Shown: piece after piece, positions 1,204 through 40,530 of the stretch
Position numbering within the stretch: position 1 is the first letter of the stretch
Layout: the number at the start of each line of letters is the position of its first letter
Assembly: GCA_001724275.1 (NCBI GenBank)
Contig: MEDZ01000019.1
Span: forward strand, 1 to 64,000
Direction: 5' to 3'
From: Gemmatimonadetes bacterium SCN 70-22
GTDB lineage: Bacteria > Gemmatimonadota > Gemmatimonadetes > Gemmatimonadales > Gemmatimonadaceae
Length of the DNA stretch: 64,000 bases
Notes under the pieces: model-generated
Database searches by the model: none
Seen by the model: the letters and a program-made list of their open reading frames with translations, nothing else
Told to the model about the DNA's origin: nothing
Program-made: the position numbers and the translations under genes

Positions 1204-1233
1204 TCGATGAAGAGACGGGAGACAGGAGGCGGG

Positions 1234-1260
1234 GGACGGGAGTGGCATCCACTCCCGTCC
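1234..1260 (-). terminator. Intercistronic hairpin between ctaD and ctaE
   Basis: A 12-bp perfect stem (GGACGGGAGTGG against CCACTCCCGTCC) with a 3-nt CAT loop lies in the gap between the subunit I stop and the subunit III start. No U-tract follows on the minus strand. It could be a leaky terminator, an mRNA-end stabiliser or a processing site that sets subunit ratios; the sequence alone does not decide. The stem is embedded in a purine-rich tract resembling the other intergenic purine repeats of this window. Confidence 0.6.
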
Positions 1261-1266
1261 GCTGGG

Positions 1267-3201
1267 CTAGTGGTGATCCTCGAGCGGGGTCGTGAGCCAG
1301 GCGTACAGGTAGCCGACCCACATGGCCGTCCCGCCATACATCAGCAGGTACGCCGGGACCTTCATCCCCTTGGGGAGGAAGATCAGTCCCGCGAACATCA
1401 GGGTGATGCCTAACGCCACGAAGAACGGCTTGATGGTCGAGGAGGGCATGGCGATGCCCAGCTCCTTCGCCGTCTTCGTCTCCGTCTCGATGTGCACGGG
1501 CGCCATGTCGTGCTCACCCGTCTGCCGCATCGCGTCGTCCCACCCGGATTGCGTGTGCGGGATGTCGGACGTGCGCTCGGGGTGCGTCAGGTCCCACAGC
1601 GGGTAGCGCGAGGTGACCATCGGGATCTTGGCGAAGTTGTACTCCGGCGGCGGCGAGGGGATCGACCACTCGAGCGTCGGCGCATCCCAGGGGTTCGGCC
1701 CCGCGACTTCGCCGTGCTTCTTGGACCTGAAGAAGTTGTAGATGAAGATCAGGGTGGCCGGCGCCAGGAGGAACGCGCCGAGCGACGACAGCAGGTTGAA
1801 CGTCTCCCACCCCTGCCCGGCGTCGTACGTGTAGATGCGACGCGGCATCCCGAGCATCCCGGAGAAGTGCATCGGGAAGAACGTGAGGTTCATCGCGATG
1901 AGGTTCAGCCAGAAGTGCCAGGTGCCGAGGCGCTCGTCCATCTTCCGGCCGTACATCTTGGGGAAGTAGTGGTAGATGCCGGCGAAGATCCCCATGATCG
2001 TCCCACCGAACAGCACGTAGTGGAAGTGGGCGACGATGTAGTACGTGTCGGTCTGCTGCAGGTCGGACGGCGGCGACGCGTGCGTGATCCCCGAGATGCC
2101 GCCGATGGTGAACATGGCGATGAGGCCGATCGCGAACTTCGTCGCCGCGGTGAAGCGGATCGAGCCTCCCCACAGCGTGAAGATCCAGTTGAAGATCTTC
2201 ACGCCGGTGGGGATGGCGATGAGCATCGTCATCAGGCCGAAGACGGTGTCGGCGACCGGGCCCATACCCACCGAGAACATGTGGTGCGCCCACACGCCGA
2301 AGCCGAGGAAGCCGATCAGGATCCCGGAGTAGGCCATCACCGGGTAGCCGAACCGGGGCTTCCTGGCATTGGCCGGGAGCACCTCGCTCACCAGGCCGAA
2401 GGCCGGGAGGATGAGGATGTAGACCTCGGGGTGCCCGAAGATCCAGAAGAGGTGCTGCCAGAGGAGCGGGTCGGCACCGGCCGAGATCTGGTAGAACGTC
2501 GTCCCGAAGAAGCGGTCGAACTGCAGGAAGACGAGGGCGATGGTGATGACCGGGAACGACAGGATGATCAGGAACTGCGTCACGAACGACATCCACGTGA
2601 AGATCGGCATGCGCATCATGTTCATCCCTGGCGCGCGCATGTTGATGACGGTCGTGGCGAAGTTGAAGCTGGCGGCCAGCGACGAGATGCCCAGGATCTG
2701 GATGCCGAGCACCCAGAAATCCATGTTCATCCCCGGCGAGTACGTGCGTCCGGAGAGCGGGGCATAGCCGAACCAGCCGCCGTTGGGGGCCACCCACGCG
2801 AAGATGGGGAGCGTGATGAACAGCCCGCCCAGGAGGTAGACCCAGTAGCTGAACGCATTCAGCCGCGGGAAGGCGACGTCACGCGCCCCGATCTGCAGCG
2901 GGATCAGGTAATTGAAGAAGGCCGCCGAGAGGGGCATCAGCGCGAGGAACACCATCGTCGTGCCGTGCATCGTGAACAGCTGGTTGAACTGCTCGGCGGT
3001 GACCACGGTGTTGTTCGGGCGCATCAGCTGCCAGCGCATCAGGATCGCCTCGAGCCCGCCGAACACGAAGAAGAAGAGCGACGTGTGCAGGTACAACGTG
3101 CCGATCTTCTTGTGGTCGGTGGTCGTGAGCCACTCCATCAGCCCGGTGCGCGCCTTGGGCGCGCTGGATGCATAGGTCGGACTTGCAGCGACAGTTGCCA
3201 T
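1267..3201 (-). CDS. ctaD: Cytochrome c oxidase subunit I (CtaD)
   Basis: This is the catalytic subunit of a haem-copper oxygen reductase, 644 residues. It holds the low-spin haem, the haem-CuB centre and proton channels. Diagnostic motifs are TMHGTTMV (low-spin haem His), HPEVYILILP (CuB His with the cross-linked Tyr), WAHHMFSVG (CuB His pair), PTGVKIFNW (K-channel) and VAHFHYVLFGG (haem ligands). Twelve or more helices are followed by a soluble stretch and two further C-terminal hydrophobic segments near residues 580-640, as in long caa3 subunits I. The ATG at 3201 gives the expected N-terminus and is followed by the WLTTTDHKKIG family start motif. A GCCTAACG octamer lies inside at 1408-1415. 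Confidence 0.96.
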   Translation of the reverse strand: MATVAASPTYASSAPKARTGLMEWLTTTDHKKIGTLYLHTSLFFFVFGGLEAILMRWQLMRPNNTVVTAEQFNQLFTMHGTTMVFLALMPLSAAFFNYLIPLQIGARDVAFPRLNAFSYWVYLLGGLFITLPIFAWVAPNGGWFGYAPLSGRTYSPGMNMDFWVLGIQILGISSLAASFNFATTVINMRAPGMNMMRMPIFTWMSFVTQFLIILSFPVITIALVFLQFDRFFGTTFYQISAGADPLLWQHLFWIFGHPEVYILILPAFGLVSEVLPANARKPRFGYPVMAYSGILIGFLGFGVWAHHMFSVGMGPVADTVFGLMTMLIAIPTGVKIFNWIFTLWGGSIRFTAATKFAIGLIAMFTIGGISGITHASPPSDLQQTDTYYIVAHFHYVLFGGTIMGIFAGIYHYFPKMYGRKMDERLGTWHFWLNLIAMNLTFFPMHFSGMLGMPRRIYTYDAGQGWETFNLLSSLGAFLLAPATLIFIYNFFRSKKHGEVAGPNPWDAPTLEWSIPSPPPEYNFAKIPMVTSRYPLWDLTHPERTSDIPHTQSGWDDAMRQTGEHDMAPVHIETETKTAKELGIAMPSSTIKPFFVALGITLMFAGLIFLPKGMKVPAYLLMYGGTAMWVGYLYAWLTTPLEDHH

Positions 3202-3207
3202 GACTAT

Positions 3208-3247
3208 GGAAGACGAGAGGACGGGAAGACGAGAAGACGAAGACGGC
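3208..3247. repeat. Purine-rich GAAGACGAG-type interspersed repeat
   Basis: Degenerate copies of an 8- to 9-bp purine motif (GAAGACGA) fill the gap between the subunit II stop and the subunit I start. A 25-nt block of it (3209-3233) is identical to one at 40496-40520, upstream of the cyclophilin gene. The tract lies where the ribosome-binding region of ctaD is expected. Confidence 0.7.
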
Positions 3248-4639: not shown

Positions 4640-4690
4640 CGCAATGAGTTAAGCCGCGTTCATCGTGGAGCGAGGCCGCGAAATCCGGGC

Positions 4691-5062
4691 TCAGGCCTCG
4701 GTCTTTTCGGCCACGATCGCATGCTTCTCCTTGACCTTCGTGACCGCGATGTCGAGCTGCATGCGGACCTGCGCGACCGATTCCCGCAGTCCCCGCACCT
4801 TCGTCTGCTCGCTCCCGCCGCGAGAGGCGACCAGCAGGAAGCTGCTCACCACGTCGGCGATCACGCTGAACTGCGGCTTGAGCAGTCCGTGGAGCGGCGT
4901 CGCGGTCCGCGTGAGCTGCTGCCGGAACTGCCCGGTCTCCGACTGCGTCCGCACCGCCATCGCGTATCGCTCCACCAGGGCGTGCAGGCGCTGCAGCTGC
5001 AGCCCCGCCTCGTCCAGCGTCGCCAGCTTCAGCTGCCCCGCCCCATCGAGTTGGCTCGCCAT
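4691..5062 (-). CDS. Hypothetical helical protein, 123 aa
   Basis: I do not recognise a family. The 123-residue product is soluble, predicted almost wholly helical, and rich in Leu/Val/Gln/Glu heptad-like runs, with no signal peptide, membrane helix or Cys. It begins 9 bp after the aspartase stop on the same strand and is very probably co-transcribed with it. A hairpin follows about 50 bp downstream. A role tied to the fused aspartase is possible but is only context. The frame is supported by its operon-like spacing and clean ends. Confidence 0.6.
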   Translation of the reverse strand: MASQLDGAGQLKLATLDEAGLQLQRLHALVERYAMAVRTQSETGQFRQQLTRTATPLHGLLKPQFSVIADVVSSFLLVASRGGSEQTKVRGLRESVAQVRMQLDIAVTKVKEKHAIVAEKTEA

Positions 5063-9762: not shown

Positions 9763-9880
9763 TGCGGCCTCGATGCGAAGGTGATACGGTCACGGCGCCG
9801 CCGGGCGGCGCGCGATGTACGGGATCGTACGCACGACCCCGCGCCGGCGCTACACGACCACCATTCGTGGGGGAGGGACG

Positions 9881-10732
9881 ATGCACAGGCGACGCTTCGT
9901 CGAGCGGTTGGGGCTCGGCATGCTCGGGCTCGCCGCGGGGGCGAGGGGAGGCGGCCGGGTGCCCCCGGGCGCGCGACGCCTCACCCGGATCGGACTCGAG
10001 CTCTACTCGGTCCGCGATGCCATGCGCCGCGATCCCGAGCGCACGCTGGCCGCGGTTCGCGCGATGGGCTACACCGATGTCGAGCTCCTCTGGACGTTCG
10101 GCAACTTCGGGAGGTCTCCGGCGCAGGTGCGAGCGGCGCTGGACAGGGAAGGGCTGCGCGCGCCGTCGGCCCACATCTCGCCCGCGGCCGTGCTGGTCGG
10201 GTGGGAGCGGTCGCTCGACGTCGCCCGGATGCTGGGGCACGAGACGCTCGTCGTCCCCAGCTTCACCGTCGACACCTCTCGCACGCTGGACGACTGGAAG
10301 GAATGGGCGGAGCGCTTCAACCGCGCGGGGGAGGTGGCCCGCCGGCACGGGATCTGGCTCGCCTTCCATAACGAGCCCGGGCACCAGCAGCCGCTCGAGG
10401 GGCGCGTCCCGATCGACTTCTTCGCCGAGTCGACCGACCCGGCGGTCGTGCGATTGCAGCTGGACGTCGGGAACATGGTGATGGGGGGCGGAGACCCGCA
10501 CGCCTTCCTCGAACGCCACGCCGCGCGCTGCTGGAGCTTCCACCTCAAGGACGTGGTCGCCGATCGCACCCGTGACACCGAGCTGGGGACGGGGAGCGTC
10601 GACCTGCGGCGGATCCTCGCCGCGATTCCCGACGTGGACCAGAAGTCGTTCTTCGTGGAACAGGAAGGCGCGAGGGATTCGCTGGCGAGTGCCAGGGAGG
10701 ACCTGGCGTACCTGGCACGCCTGGAATTCTAG
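9881..10732 (+). CDS. Sugar phosphate isomerase/epimerase-like TIM-barrel protein, TAT-type signal
   Basis: The 283-residue product belongs to the xylose-isomerase-like TIM-barrel group (AP endonuclease family 2 fold). Recognisable strands and metal-site motifs are TRIGLELYSVRD at the start, LAFHNEPGH, VRLQLDVGNMV and FHLKDVV. The N-terminus RRRFVERLGLGMLGLAAG resembles a twin-arginine signal, so the protein is probably exported. The ATG at 9881 follows a strong GGGGGAGGG ribosome site; frame starting at 9815 has none. The substrate is not evident. The last codons, Glu-Phe-stop, lie inside a purine-rich interspersed element shared with the kup gene end. Confidence 0.8.
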   Translation: MHRRRFVERLGLGMLGLAAGARGGGRVPPGARRLTRIGLELYSVRDAMRRDPERTLAAVRAMGYTDVELLWTFGNFGRSPAQVRAALDREGLRAPSAHISPAAVLVGWERSLDVARMLGHETLVVPSFTVDTSRTLDDWKEWAERFNRAGEVARRHGIWLAFHNEPGHQQPLEGRVPIDFFAESTDPAVVRLQLDVGNMVMGGGDPHAFLERHAARCWSFHLKDVVADRTRDTELGTGSVDLRRILAAIPDVDQKSFFVEQEGARDSLASAREDLAYLARLEF

Positions 10733-10782
10733 AAGACGAGAAGACGAGAAGACGAGAAGACGAGAAGACGAGAAGACGAGAG
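10724..10782. repeat. 8-bp purine tandem repeat with GAATTCTAG boundary
   Basis: The element begins GAATTCTAG, which supplies Glu-Phe-stop of the preceding gene, and continues as six perfect copies of AGAAGACG. A near-identical 25-nt head (24 of 25 positions) lies at 24166-24190 on the other strand, where it ends kup in the same way. It fills part of the gap before the glycosylasparaginase gene. Confidence 0.8.
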
Positions 10783-10878
10783 GCTCACGTATGGCGGCGC
10801 ACGGGTTCCAGCTCGTCACCGCGCCTGCGGCGCCGTAGAATTCGCGCGCTCCCCTTCCACTTTCACCCCCCCCCCGTC

Positions 10879-21827: not shown

Positions 21828-24131
21828 ATGCATGGATGGCGACGGCTGACGGTCACCGCACTGCTCGCGGGTCCGGGCATGGCAGGGGGACAGGAGGAGG
21901 GCGGGCGACGCGCCTCCGCCCCCCGCACCGCGGTGACGACCGGGACGATCGGAGGCACGGTCCGATCGGCCGACGGCGCCGCCGTTCGCAATGCCACGAT
22001 CCTGCTCGACGATGCTGAACACGGCCCAGTCAGCAGCGGCAGGGACGGGCGCTTCGTGCTGCGCGCGGTCCCCGCCGGCGAGCGGCGCCTGCTCTCGACC
22101 GCCCGCGGTTTCACCCCGGCGCGCGTGGCGGCCACGGTCGTCGCCGGAGAGAGCACGCATGTGGAGGTGACGCTCCAGCGCACGGCGGTGCAGCTCGCGG
22201 GGGTCACCATCGACGCGACGCCGAGCGGGCGTGACCCGCTGGCGGTGGCCCAGCCGGCCGCCGTGCTCGGTGGGCGCGAGCTGGAGCGCTCGATGGCGGC
22301 AACCCTGTCGCAGACCCTCGCCTGGTCGCCCGGCGTGACGGTGCGTTCGCAGGGACCCGCCGCGAGCATGCCGGTAATCCGCGGGCTGACGGGGGAGCGG
22401 ATCGTGGTGCTTCACGACGGGCAGCGTGCCGGCGACCTGGCCGGGAGCGCGCCGGACCACGGCGTCACCATCGACCCGCTCGCGGCGCGCGAGGTGGAGA
22501 TCGTTCGCGGGCCGGCGGCGCTGGTTCACGGGAGCACGGCGCTGGGCGGGGTGGTGAACGTCGTTGCCGACGACATCGCCCGGATCGTTCCGTCGCAGCG
22601 CCTGTCGACTCTCACCCTGAATGCCGAGAGCGTCAGCGGAGGGGGCGGGCTGCTGGTGGACGTGGTGCAGCCACTGGGGCACACGGGGGTGCTCCGGCTC
22701 AAGGCCGGGGGGCGCTCGCATGGCGACCAGCGCGTGGGGAGAGGCGACCTACGGGGGGTGCTGGACAACACGAGCTCGCGCAACCGGCAGGCGGTGATCG
22801 GGCTCTCGCGCGTCGGAGACGATTCACTGGGGGAGACGAGTGGCGGGGTGGCCGTTCGCCGCTACGATTTCGAGTTCGGCCTCCCCTGGCGCAGCCGCGC
22901 GGCGGACGGGGTGCGACTGCGCGGGGCCCGGAACGAGGTATCGATGCGCGCCGAGCGCGGCACGCGCGGCGTCGTGTCGCGCGTGCGGGTCGAGGCCACG
23001 GCGCAGTGGTATGCGCACGATGAGGTGACGTCGGGCGGCGAGGTGGCCACCGCCCTGGCGCTTCGCACGCAGCAGGGGCAGGTCATGGCGCGCACCCGCC
23101 CCGCCGGCGTGCTGGGTGAGGGGGTGGTGGGGGTGTCGGTGCTCTCGCGCCGGAACGGGGTGTCGGGGGCACAGGCCCTCACGCCGCCTAACGACAACCT
23201 GACCATGTCGGCCTTCGCCTACCAGGAGGTGGCGCCGTGGCGGGAACGGGAGGCGGGACGGGGCGCGCCGCGATTCCCCGTCGCCCTGCGCCTCGACCAT
23301 GCCATGTTGCGACGCGACGGAACGGACGCCTTCGGCCCGGCCCTCACGCGCCGCTTCACCAGCCTCTCGGCCTCGGCGGGCGTCGCGGTTCCCCTCACGC
23401 GCGTCGCGTCGGTCGCGGTGAACGCCGCGAGCGGGGCGCGGGTCCCGTCACCCGAGGAGCTCTTCTCGCGCGCCGGGCACGCCGGCACCGGGGCGTTCGA
23501 GATCGGCAATCCTTCGTTGGCGACGGAGGTGACGCGTGGGGTGGATGCCGTGGTTCGCGTCGAGCGGCACGCCATGCGCGCCCAGGTGGCGCTGTTCGCC
23601 TCGCGAGTCGACGGCTGGATCGCGCTCTACCCGACGGGGCGGGACACCATCGCGGCCGTCCCCGGGGGGGGAGAAAAGGTGCTGCCCCTGATGATGGTCG
23701 CGCAGCGTGACGCCCGCGTGCGCGGCGGCGAGGTGAGCGTGGAGGGCGCCGTGGCGCGCCACGTCGTCGCGACGTTCAGCGCCGACGTGTTGCGGGCCTC
23801 GGACGATCGGGGCGATCCGCTCCCCTTCATGCCCCCCGCACGGTTCTCGGGGGCGGCGCGCTGGGATGACGGGCGGTGGCAGCTGGGCGGGGGGGTCCGT
23901 CGGGTCCTGGCACAACGGCGCGTGACGAACGGCGAGTATCCCACCGACGCCTTCACGGTGATCGAGGCGCATGCCGGCGTGCGCCTGCTGGCCGGCGGCC
24001 ACGTGCACGCGCTGCTGCTGCGCGGCGAGAACGTGGGCGACCGGCTGTATCGCGACGCGACGAGCCGCGTGAAGGACTTCGCCCCTGCCGCCGGGCGCAA
24101 CGTGTCGCTCCTGTATCGCCTCACCTTCTGA
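21828..24131 (+). CDS. TonB-dependent outer membrane receptor with carboxypeptidase-like N-domain
   Basis: The 767-residue product would import a chelated metal, vitamin or other ligand across the outer membrane. A short signal is followed by a CarboxypepD_reg-like beta-sandwich (about 40-115, TIGGTVRSADGAAVRNATILL), the plug domain (SQTLAWSPGVTVRSQGPAASMPVIRGLTGER in parts, ending REVEIVRGPAALVHGSTALGGVVNV) and a 22-strand-type barrel closing in aromatic YRLTF. The ATG at 21828 follows AGGGG by 10 nt; an ATG at 21818 is in another frame. The dyad just upstream suggests metal-controlled expression. The ligand cannot be named. A GCCTAACG octamer at 23186 encodes Pro-Asn. Confidence 0.9.
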   Translation: MHGWRRLTVTALLAGPGMAGGQEEGGRRASAPRTAVTTGTIGGTVRSADGAAVRNATILLDDAEHGPVSSGRDGRFVLRAVPAGERRLLSTARGFTPARVAATVVAGESTHVEVTLQRTAVQLAGVTIDATPSGRDPLAVAQPAAVLGGRELERSMAATLSQTLAWSPGVTVRSQGPAASMPVIRGLTGERIVVLHDGQRAGDLAGSAPDHGVTIDPLAAREVEIVRGPAALVHGSTALGGVVNVVADDIARIVPSQRLSTLTLNAESVSGGGGLLVDVVQPLGHTGVLRLKAGGRSHGDQRVGRGDLRGVLDNTSSRNRQAVIGLSRVGDDSLGETSGGVAVRRYDFEFGLPWRSRAADGVRLRGARNEVSMRAERGTRGVVSRVRVEATAQWYAHDEVTSGGEVATALALRTQQGQVMARTRPAGVLGEGVVGVSVLSRRNGVSGAQALTPPNDNLTMSAFAYQEVAPWREREAGRGAPRFPVALRLDHAMLRRDGTDAFGPALTRRFTSLSASAGVAVPLTRVASVAVNAASGARVPSPEELFSRAGHAGTGAFEIGNPSLATEVTRGVDAVVRVERHAMRAQVALFASRVDGWIALYPTGRDTIAAVPGGGEKVLPLMMVAQRDARVRGGEVSVEGAVARHVVATFSADVLRASDDRGDPLPFMPPARFSGAARWDDGRWQLGGGVRRVLAQRRVTNGEYPTDAFTVIEAHAGVRLLAGGHVHALLLRGENVGDRLYRDATSRVKDFAPAAGRNVSLLYRLTF

Positions 24132-24166
24132 CGTTCCCGGCGCGGGAAGCCGGAACCGGGAACGTC
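24130..24166. terminator. Bidirectional hairpin between the TonB receptor gene and kup
   Basis: GACGTTCCCGG and CCGGGAACGTC pair as an 11-bp stem with a 15-nt loop that itself can form a small stem. It lies between two convergent genes and overlaps the receptor stop codon by two bases. Confidence 0.7.
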
Positions 24167-24190
24167 TCGTCTTCTCGCCTTCTAGAATTC
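24166..24190 (-). repeat. Purine-rich element supplying the kup stop codon
   Basis: Read on the minus strand, this 25-nt element begins GAATTCTAG and continues with purine-rich AAGGCGAGAAGACGAG. It matches 10724-10748 in 24 of 25 positions. The first nine bases are the Glu-Phe-stop end of kup. Confidence 0.75.
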
Positions 24191-26197
24191 GATTTGCGTC
24201 CCCAACTCGACCACCCGGTTGGCAGGGATGCCGAAGTACTGTGTTGCCGAGCGGGCGTTGCGGGCCATCACGGCGAACAGCTTCTTGCGCCAGCGTGACA
24301 TCCCGACGCTGTTGGCGCAGATGAGGTCCTCGCGCCCCAGGTAGTACGTCGTATCCATCCGCTTGGTCTTGATCCCCGCCTCCCCCAGCCGGGCACGGAT
24401 GTCCTCCACGTTCGGGGTCTCCATGAAGCCGTAGTACGCCCGCACGCGGAAGAGCCCCTGTTGCAGCGGTTCGACCGTGATGCGCTCGCCGCTCGGGACC
24501 TCGGGAACCTCGCGGGAGATGATCGAGAGGAGGATGACCTTCTCGTGCAGCACCTTGTTGTGCTTGAGGTGGTGCAGGAGCACGACCGGGGTCCCCTCGG
24601 ACTCCGACGTCATGAAGATCGCCGTCCCCGGGACGCGCACCGGACCGCCGTGCTGCAGGCTCTCGACGAAGGAGGCGATCGGGAGGGTGCGGTCGAGGAG
24701 CTTGATGCGCAGCAGGACGCGCCCGCGCTTCCACGTGGTCATGAGGGTGAACAGCGTGGCCGCGATCGCGAGCGGGACCCACCCCCCGTGCGGGATCTTG
24801 AGGAGGTTCGAGGCGAAGAACGCCAGGTCGATCCCCATGAAGAAGGCGAGGAAGCTCCCGGCCTTGAGCGCCGACCAGTTCCACTGCCGCCGGGCGACGA
24901 CGTAGAACAGGATGTTGGTGATGGCCATCGTCCCCGTCACCGCCACGCCGTAGGCGGCGCCTAACGCGGTGGACGAGCGGAAGCCGACGACCAGGAGGAG
25001 CGTCCCGATCGCCAGCGCCACGTTGACCTCGGGGATGTAGATCTGCCCGGCCTCCTGCTTGGACGTGTGGACGATCGTCACGCGCGGGGTGTAGCCCAGC
25101 TGCACCGCCTGCTGCGTGAGCGAGAAGGCGCCCGAGATCAGCGCCTGCGACGCCACGATGGCGGCCAGGGTGGCGATGACGATCAGCGGAATGAGGGCCC
25201 ACTCCGGCGCCAGGAGGTAGAAGGGGTTCTCGACCGCGCCCGGATCCCGCAACACCAGCGCGCCCTGCCCGAAGTAGTTCAGCAGGAGCGCCGGGAGGAC
25301 GAGGGCGAACCAGGCGACGCGGATCGGCCGCTTCCCGAAGTGCCCCATGTCCGCATAGAGCGCCTCGCCCCCGGTGATGACCAGGACGACCGCCCCCAGG
25401 ACGATGAACGAGCGCACGGGGTGCGCCATGAAGAACGTCACTCCATACCAGGGATTCACGGCGGCGAAGATCCCCGGATGGTTCACGACCTCACGAAGCC
25501 CCACGAACCCGATGCTCACGAACCAGGCGAGCATGATCCAGCCGAACGTCCCGCCCACGCGCGCCGTCCCGTGGTGCTGGAAGTAGAACAGCGTGGCGAT
25601 GATGATGACGGCGAGCGGGACGCCGACGTACGAGAACTGCGGGGCGACGACCTCGAGCCCCTCCACGGCGCCGAGTACGGTGATGGCGGGGGTGATCACC
25701 CCATCGCCATAGAGGAACGCCCCCCCCACGAGACCCAGCATCACGAGCACGATGCGCCGCGTCCGCCACGTGCCATCGTCGGGTTGTTGGAGGATCAGGG
25801 CGAGGAGGGCGAGCACGCCTCCCTCGCCCCGGTTGTCGGCGCGCAGGATGAAGGCGACGTACTTGATGCTGACGATGAGGATCAGCGCCCAGACGATGAG
25901 GGAGAGGAGGCCGAAGACGTTCGCCTCGTTAGGCGTGAGCCCGTATTCGGGCTTGAACGCCTCCTTCATGGAGTAGAGCGGGCTCGTCCCGATGTCGCCG
26001 TAGACGACGCCGAGCGCCGTCAGCGTCAGCAGCGCCAACCGCTTGCCGGTGGGGTTGGCTGGCGCGTGATGCCGTTGCATCGGCACGGGTGCCTCGACGG
26101 TCATGCTCCCGGTGGTGGCCACGGGAGGGGGAGTACCGCCGCTGGTCCTGCTACTTTCGCCTTCCGCGGGTTGGGCGGGGGCGGAATCTGCACTCAT
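24182..26197 (-). CDS. kup: Low-affinity potassium transporter Kup
   Basis: This 671-residue inner-membrane K+/H+ symporter is recognised by LTALGVVYGDIGTSPLYSMKEAF and by PKMVSL-family features: about 12 helices to residue ~460, then a soluble C-terminal domain (about 200 residues, ending ANRVVELGTQIEF). About 60 residues precede the first helix, with Ala/Pro/Thr-rich composition. The ATG at 26197 is chosen because upstream frame is Arg-rich and lies in the PadR terminator. Two octamers lie inside: 24959 (Leu-Gly) and 25927 (Pro-Asn). Its final Glu-Phe-stop lies in the purine element. It is a single-gene unit. Confidence 0.95.
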   Translation of the reverse strand: MSADSAPAQPAEGESSRTSGGTPPPVATTGSMTVEAPVPMQRHHAPANPTGKRLALLTLTALGVVYGDIGTSPLYSMKEAFKPEYGLTPNEANVFGLLSLIVWALILIVSIKYVAFILRADNRGEGGVLALLALILQQPDDGTWRTRRIVLVMLGLVGGAFLYGDGVITPAITVLGAVEGLEVVAPQFSYVGVPLAVIIIATLFYFQHHGTARVGGTFGWIMLAWFVSIGFVGLREVVNHPGIFAAVNPWYGVTFFMAHPVRSFIVLGAVVLVITGGEALYADMGHFGKRPIRVAWFALVLPALLLNYFGQGALVLRDPGAVENPFYLLAPEWALIPLIVIATLAAIVASQALISGAFSLTQQAVQLGYTPRVTIVHTSKQEAGQIYIPEVNVALAIGTLLLVVGFRSSTALGAAYGVAVTGTMAITNILFYVVARRQWNWSALKAGSFLAFFMGIDLAFFASNLLKIPHGGWVPLAIAATLFTLMTTWKRGRVLLRIKLLDRTLPIASFVESLQHGGPVRVPGTAIFMTSESEGTPVVLLHHLKHNKVLHEKVILLSIISREVPEVPSGERITVEPLQQGLFRVRAYYGFMETPNVEDIRARLGEAGIKTKRMDTTYYLGREDLICANSVGMSRWRKKLFAVMARNARSATQYFGIPANRVVELGTQIEF

Positions 26198-26277
26198 GAG
26201 GATGCGTCGATCGCGGCGCGAGGCCGGAGACACCGGACGTTCGGCCGAGTCCACGCCGCCCCGGTGACGAGGCGACG

Positions 26278-26308
26278 AAAAAACGGGCCGCGACATTCGC
26301 CGCGACCC
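26278..26308 (-). terminator. Intrinsic terminator after the padR-like gene
   Basis: On the minus strand GGGTCGCG pairs with CGCGGCCC (one G-U pair) around an 8-nt loop, followed by GTTTTTT. This is the best classical Rho-independent terminator in the window. It separates the PadR gene from kup. Confidence 0.9.
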
Positions 26309-33581: not shown

Positions 33582-33729
33582 CGGGGATCGCGGTCCGTAG
33601 GAGGGGGAGCGTCTGGTCCGACCAGCCGAACCGATCAATTTAGCATGGGATCGAGGGGAGAGCTTCCCCGGGCGTCGCCGTGTCCCCCGGGCTGTCCCCG
33701 CCCCCCTCGTCCCCAGGCGGCGCCCCGCG

Positions 33730-33915
33730 GCTTCGTTCCCGCACCGCTCCGGCGTCCTTCCGGCTCCCCTCCGGCGTCCCCCGGCTGCTCGCCGACGTCC
33801 CGCCGACGTCCCGCCGACGTCCCGCCGGCCTCCCGCCGGCCTCCCGCCGGCCTCGCTCCGGCCTCGCTCCGGCTTCCCTCCGACTTCCCGCCGGCTTCCC
33901 GCCGGCTTCCCGCCC
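33730..33915. repeat. 11-bp tandem repeat array, about 17 degenerate units
   Basis: The 386-bp gap between the emrB stop and the HD gene start holds little but this array. Units follow RCNTCCCNCCG: for example ACGTCCCGCCG three times (33795-33827), GCCTCCCGCCG twice, GCCTCGCTCCG twice, then GCTTCCCGCCG. One unit, at 33785, is 10 bp. Divergence increases towards the left end. All three frames are open on both strands because of composition, and no product is convincing. Beyond the array, 33582-33729 shows no gene. Confidence 0.85.
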
Positions 33916-40027: not shown

Positions 40028-40486
40028 TTAGTCGACGCGCGCCGAGGTGAGCTCGTCATTCTGCTTGATGGTCGGCAGGATGTCGAGGCCCGAGGTGACG
40101 CGCCCGAAGACGGTGTGCACGCCGTTGAGGTGACGGCAGTTGTCGGGGTTCAGGACGATGAAGAACTGCGAGCCCCCCGTGTCCTTTCCGGCATGAGCCA
40201 TGGAGAGGGAACCCAGTTCGTGCTTGTGCGGGTTCCCCGCCGTTTCGCACTTGATCTTCCATCCGGGGCCGCCGGTGCCGACGGGGCCTTTCGCATGCTC
40301 GCCCCCCTTGGAATACGGATCGCCGCCCTGTACGACGAACTCGGGGATGACCCGGTGGAAGCGGGTGCCGTCGTAGAAGCCGCTGTTGGCGAGCTTCTCG
40401 AAGTTGGCGACGGTGTTGGGGGCTTCGGTGTCGTAGAGCTCCAGGGTGAGCGTCCCCTTGGAGGTGACTATCGTGGCGGATTTCAT
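40028..40486 (-). CDS. Peptidyl-prolyl cis-trans isomerase (cyclophilin type)
   Basis: The 152-residue cytoplasmic protein has the cyclophilin core: [19 protein letters not shown] at the start, [15 protein letters not shown] with the catalytic Arg, and [17 protein letters not shown]. It accelerates proline isomerisation during folding. There is no signal peptide, so it is the cytosolic PpiB-like form. The ATG at 40486 leads straight into the first strand. Its 5' region holds a purine repeat shared with the ctaC-ctaD gap. Confidence 0.94.
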
Positions 40487-40493
40487 TGATCGG

Positions 40494-40530
40494 GAGAAGA
40501 CGAGAGGACGGGAAGACGAGCAGACGAGAG
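40494..40530. repeat. Purine-rich interspersed repeat upstream of the cyclophilin gene
   Basis: Purine motifs of the GAAGACGAG type occupy the 5' region of the cyclophilin gene. A 25-nt block at 40496-40520 is identical to 3209-3233. Its placement just before a start codon, as in the oxidase operon, suggests a shared origin or role. Confidence 0.7.

Follow-up and report, generated by a model that had tools for sequence, protein, structure and literature searches.

The window, by which we mean the whole 64,000-nt stretch of DNA analysed from Gemmatimonadetes bacterium SCN 70-22, contains two unrelated genes whose ends look alike. One, at 9815–10732 (+), encodes a sugar-phosphate isomerase/AP-endonuclease-like TIM-barrel protein (PF01261) ending in LARLEF-TAG, and the other, kup, at 24182–26296 (−), encodes a potassium transporter (PF02705/PF22776) ending in VVELGTQIEF-TAG. 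As an earlier note on this DNA had described, the stretches at 10724–10748 (+; GAATTCTAGAAGACGAGAAGACGAG) and 24190–24166 (−; GAATTCTAGAAGGCGAGAAGACGAG) are identical at 24 of 25 bases, with one difference, and both reading frames terminate in Glu-Phe-TAG. The 12-mer GAATTCTAGAAG, searched with 0–1 mismatch, occurs twice in the window versus 0.01 times expected, and these are its only two places in the 4.70-Mb assembly. The repeat proper starts at the stop codon, with TAG followed by (AGAAGACG)n. Behind the TIM-barrel gene, the array occupies 10731–10781 (+; 51 nt, 6.4 perfect units) and overlaps the AG of the TAG stop (10730–10732); behind kup, it occupies 24165–24183 (−; 19 nt, about 2.4 units) and likewise overlaps the AG of the TAG. 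The coincidence of coding end and repeat boundary claimed in the note thus holds at the stop codon and not at GAATTC, what was taken for the head of an element being made up of coding sequence and the first repeat unit. The expansion into 8-bp units seen in one copy was correctly read, but the kup copy is itself an array.

Directly 3' of the kup array lies a strong GC hairpin (24130–24166, −; MFE −26.4 kcal/mol, z −3.4), which overlaps the end of the convergent gene and is terminator-like. At 10836–10843, about 105 bp beyond 10724–10731 (GAATTCTA) and in the same intergenic region, TAGAATTC forms an inverted copy of it, possibly by chance. A known structured RNA was rejected as an explanation, with no match in the window to an Rfam covariance model at the gathering threshold. 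Two further repeats were observed in the window: contig C19 starts inside a perfect 14-bp tandem (1–76; GATGCGCGTCGCCT x5.4), probably an assembly break point, and about 15 tandem copies of the 11-bp unit CCGGCGTCCCG occupy 33728–33914, with a 22-bp repeat ahead of them.

The proposal that the element had supplied the Glu-Phe ends is contradicted by the orthologues. Kup proteins of the family and order whose genes lack the repeat end in VVELGTQIEF, GAQIEF or QIEL, those of the TIM-barrel protein in LEF, LNF, LQF or LRF, and the octamer follows the stop in none of the Kup or TIM-barrel orthologues outside the genus. Judged from these sequences, the Glu-Phe ends are native, ancestral coding sequence and not derived from the element, and the two genes share the GAATTC half of the 12-mer by coincidence of coding, as Glu-Phe ends also occur in orthologues that lack the repeat. 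A related suggestion, that the original stop had been replaced, fares better: both genes end in TAG here versus TGA in the congener G002, which is array-free at both sites, and therefore the stop may well have been rewritten. In G001, kup ends in TAG followed by a degenerate purine stretch. In other genera, different purine-rich repeats were seen directly after the kup stop in G014 (L147; the 11-mer AGAGAAACAAC) and G033 (L150; GAGAGGC-like), and directly after the stop of a TIM-barrel paralogue in G025 (L131; GGTTGGAA-like).

What the note named as a refutation, two copies only and Glu-Phe ends in orthologues without the repeat, is borne out for the 12-mer but not for the repeat: the 12-mer is confined to two places, and the octamer belongs to a large family. 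Searching for a 17-mer of the octamer unit with up to 2 mismatches gave 454 matches in this genome and 616 and 601 in two congeners, with 0–4 in 38 other genomes of the order and 0–4 per genome for the control, the pattern read backwards; matches overlap within an array, so that arrays are fewer than matches. Sequence analysed further comprised 1.65 Mb of this genome (G000), 0.40 Mb of the congener G002 and 0.40 Mb of G029, a member of another family. The assemblies are drafts, genes were called by our own codon-usage script, and gene starts are our own calls from the sequence alone. The 1.65 Mb contained 57 octamer arrays (25 of them perfect), which extrapolates to about 160 in this genome, with a median length of 35 nt or about 4.4 units (range 13–76 nt, typically 19–60 nt). 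Purine arrays were found in about 11% of the gaps of at least 40 nt (82/763). A few arrays extend into C-terminal codons; read from the sequence, none of the six frames of (AGAAGACG)n contains a stop. An exact search for stop plus array in 84,980 named genomes returned 16 stretches, of which 15 were from the Gemmatimonadetes MAG clean1220 and 1 was from a Burkholderiales MAG. The latter contig (L215) has TAG and three octamers in a less GC-rich context and may represent chance, a binning error or an independent case. In the open literature searched, we found no published description of such repeats in Gemmatimonadota.

The position of the arrays follows a simple rule. With arrays oriented by the purine strand, the 5' edge lay within 10 nt of a coding edge in 44 of the 55 placeable arrays of the 1.65 Mb, as compared to a mean of 11.5 and a maximum of 22 in 10,000 trials of uniform placement in the same gaps, and the 3' edge showed no such attraction (8/55). 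The corresponding figures in G002 were 8/11 and 0/11. An upstream gene on the same strand presents its stop codon as the edge (24/26 between −11 and +7), and a divergent one its start codon, at a distance of usually 3–11 nt (range 2–11) and often exactly 7 nt. The purine strand points away from the gene into the intergenic region. Examples in the window are the (AGAAGACG)n array at 3209–3240 (+), 7 nt outside a possible start ATG (3199–3201, −) of a divergent gene, the (AGAAGACG)n array at 40494–40529 (+), 7 nt outside the start codon of the gene at 40028–40486 (−), and a (GAGACGG)n heptamer array at 1212–1242 (+), at the edge formed by the start codon of the gene at 526–1203 (−). Convergent pairs also occur in one gap, e.g. 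C10 130606+/130719−, and 113804+/113897− and 198787+/198959− in G002.

The rule is not limited to the octamer. Purine arrays found de novo (tandem period 5–10, at least 80% purine) were closer to a gene at their 5' edge in 72/91, 20/21 and 26/30 cases in the three genomes, whereas low-purine control arrays in the genus gave 39/69 and 15/26, which is not significant; those in G029 had some polarity (23/30, p=0.005). The de novo units of the genus were AGAAGACG and GAGACGG and that of G029 was GAGACGA, the edge rule being common to all. The arrays of the genus thus constitute a genus-specific family of short purine tandems, [GAG][AAGACGAG]n, which are intergenic, begin with their 5' end at a coding edge and have outward polarity. 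The earlier idea of a repeat spreading at gene 3' ends is borne out in that a dispersed family overlaps stop codons genome-wide, and falls short in that about half of the arrays are at start codons, in the opposite sense. That it is a mobile element finds no support. No transposon-like ends were found. A larger mobile element around the array was rejected, as no conserved 5' or 3' flank was seen outside the tandem, and defined terminal inverted repeats or conserved ends, as in a MITE or insertion sequence, were likewise not found.

Some DNA-uptake sequences (DUS) are over-represented genome-wide and located at gene ends. The octamer has the same two properties, which would fit a DNA-uptake or replication-orienting signal (DUS-, KOPS- or Chi-like); however, single intergenic units outside arrays are not enriched (4 vs a permuted mean of 3.3) and the 17-mer matches have no gross strand bias over the contigs (232 vs 222), making a signal of this kind very improbable.

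At the stop edges, TAG is used in 19/24 genes vs 35% of all genes (p=1e-5), an excess consistent with arrays that reach the T of the stop codon (T followed by AGAAGACG, i.e. TAG followed by GAGAAGACG). The idea that the array forms a terminator stem was rejected: an inverted partial copy lies downstream of only 9/24 stop-edge arrays, and folding after the arrays was not significantly stronger than in the control (p=0.14). Leaders at the start edges have the form ..CGTCTTCTCGTCTTCTC-(about 7 nt)-ATG, and an SD-like motif was detected in 1/22 genes vs 30% of the others, suggesting that pyrimidine repeats stand in place of the Shine-Dalgarno sequence there. Leaders before starts are generally pyrimidine-rich (outward purine about 53–61%), and only about 30% of genes in the 1.65 Mb have an SD-like motif at all.

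Comparison with relatives revealed that units can change at a site that stays. At three orthologous edges, one congener has the octamer and the other the heptamer, with place and polarity kept: the octamer at 3209 corresponds to a (GAGACGG)n heptamer at the same site and in the same orientation in G002, and the start edge at C10:49390 and the stop edge at C10:19884 carry the heptamer here and the octamer in MAG clean1220. The unit is unchanged at C2:175068 (vs L206), at C3:129842 (vs L211) and for the heptamer at 1212 in the window (vs G002); of the array at 40494–40529, one degenerate unit is retained at the orthologous site of G002. Outward purine content correlates between orthologous edges (rho 0.41, p=1e-4, 81 edges). 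Across the phylum (150 genomes), one genus has two species in which the GAGACGA heptamer is abundant and two in which it is rare. The reversed-control heptamer GCAGAGA gave 88 and 48 matches in G007 and seems to belong to another heptamer family. Array length differs as well, the L211 array of MAG clean1220 (reverse strand, about 4680–5015) having about 13 perfect octamers and the orthologous array here about three and a half.

These observations could be taken to mean that the arrays are functional punctuation, i.e. directional binding sites at the DNA or RNA level, with site and polarity under selection and the unit drifting along with its binding protein. Purine repeats would then act in the 3' UTR after stops, and pyrimidine leaders would replace the Shine-Dalgarno sequence by binding a regulator or ribosomal protein S1. 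Site and orientation are indeed kept between congeners while the unit changes, the outward purine content of orthologous edges is correlated, and the start-edge genes have a spacing that clusters near 7 nt and lack SD-like motifs; translational control has also been proposed for the TAACTGA repeats before starts (MacGregor 2015, PMC4679880). On the other hand, arrays are present in only the 11% of intergenic gaps given above, a single RNA-level role is ruled out because the RNA has one sense at starts and the opposite one at stops, and the transcriptome of Xanthomonas, which has comparable arrays, displayed no regulatory trend (PMC4692102). We regard selection for such a function as an unlikely origin of the pattern.

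The array ends are phase-locked at both ends, as GAG[AAGACGAG]n (p about 1e-10), and this bears on how the arrays arise. Repeats of this kind are known to arise by polymerase slippage, and the pyrimidine-rich leaders would offer purine-rich seeds at gene edges from which each array could have grown in situ. Local slippage by itself would not yield one octamer at well over 100 loci in the genus and other units in sister genera, nor ends locked in phase, and is improbable as the whole explanation. Phase-locked ends and a unit common to arrays genome-wide would also be expected if a telomerase-like reverse transcriptase, a REP-associated transposase or a similar enzyme extended the 3' DNA ends of intergenic breaks with purine repeats, with the convergent pairs in one gap as two healed ends. 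No reverse transcriptase (PF00078) was found in the array-rich G002 and G029 or in the 74%-complete G001, however, and no Y1_Tnp/RAYT (PF01797) in G000 or G029; the unit is not palindromic, no conserved flank is present beyond the array, and the close fit to coding edges would be left unexplained. Templating by a reverse transcriptase and RAYT were accordingly rejected as specific candidates, and dedicated writing in general appears doubtful, about as much so as slippage alone.

We consider it the best explanation overall, with a probability of roughly 45%, that the arrays are edge-bound purine tracts spread by copying and slippage and bounded by selection at coding limits. Copying between loci is inferred because one unit at many loci, together with unit swaps, is hard to obtain from independent slippage, and the phase-locked ends also point to it. 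For the spread, the border and the polarity, we tentatively propose that i) array length changes by slippage, ii) arrays are copied or homogenised between loci via ectopic recombination or template switching, which would account for the few units common to most arrays of the genus and for unit swaps at a fixed site, iii) arrays may spread through noncoding DNA until they meet bases protected by selection, namely the T of the stop codon or a few nt before the start, and iv) an orientation filter would keep the polarity. Such a filter might work as follows: purine repeats on the sense strand before a start would resemble Shine-Dalgarno or R-loop-prone sequence, pyrimidine repeats at this position would be tolerated and may aid SD-independent initiation, and purine repeats after a stop, ahead of the terminator, would be tolerated as well. 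The arrays would then be for the most part selfish or neutral and affect UTRs as a by-product. Several points weigh against this scheme: the copying of discrete cassettes accounts for phase-locked ends at least as well as free slippage does, a filter on orientation alone leaves the fit of arrays to within 0–8 nt of the edge unexplained, and for arrays at stops between convergent genes translation offers no obvious reason for the purine polarity. We identified no donor tract and saw no copying event directly.

A wider reading, which we rate as rather unlikely, is that bacteria have a general process by which purine repeats specific to a lineage are written outward from coding edges, and are rewritten together when the unit changes. 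If so, the rule would be common to Gemmatimonadota, Xanthomonas and Nostoc with unrelated units, and site and polarity would be conserved, not sequence or quadruplex. In the sole detailed precedent, gene-edge polarity had been tied to G-quadruplexes; here, it is found with a quadruplex-incapable unit that switches between congeners, and G-quadruplexes do not explain the gene-edge rule, since AGAAGACG cannot form them. The cause of the rule can now be tested by strain comparison. The arrays also call for caution in annotation, as they can make unrelated gene ends look alike and can lengthen gene calls or blur their edges.

The STRR heptanucleotide repeats of heterocystous cyanobacteria are short tandem units that are intergenic and lineage-specific; they share with the present arrays the scattered, lineage-specific intergenic tandems and differ in unit. 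REP/RAYT systems are similar in being dispersed intergenic repeats near gene ends, but the present unit contains no palindrome and this genome no Y1 transposase. The TAACTGA heptamer repeats of marine Beggiatoaceae are a precedent for heptamers in place of the Shine-Dalgarno sequence (MacGregor 2015, PMC4679880). Like these, the present arrays consist of short tandem units that would replace the Shine-Dalgarno directly before starts and are patchy across lineages. TAACTGA repeats, however, have stops in all frames, are not purine-rich and occur mostly at starts only, whereas (AGAAGACG)n is open in six frames.

The closest parallel is provided by the GGGAATC and GGGGA(C/T)T heptamer arrays of Xanthomonas and Nostoc, which are lineage-restricted and intergenic, with about 90–190 per genome (Rehm et al. 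2015, PMC4692102). Their G-rich 5' end averages 28 nt from an ORF vs 160 nt on the other side; after stops they lie on the coding strand, with overlap of the stop codon included, and before starts on the non-coding one; pairs in convergent orientation occur, and length varies between related species (PMC4692102). The authors considered G-quadruplexes and left the function open (PMC4692102). Both families have lineage-restricted abundance, intergenic location, a purine- or G-rich 5' end nearer the ORF in either orientation, and convergent pairs. The main unit here is 8 nt, although GAGACGG here and GAGACGA in G029 are 7 nt, and AGAAGACG has no GG, so no G-quadruplex is possible. We do not assign the arrays to the Rehm type because these two features, the heptamer unit and quadruplex-capable G-tracts, are lacking. 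The Rehm arrays prefer four units; the median here is about 4.4 (35 nt, range 13–76). The present arrays also differ in their tighter abutment (mostly 0–8 nt), the enrichment of TAG stops and the switch of unit at orthologous sites.
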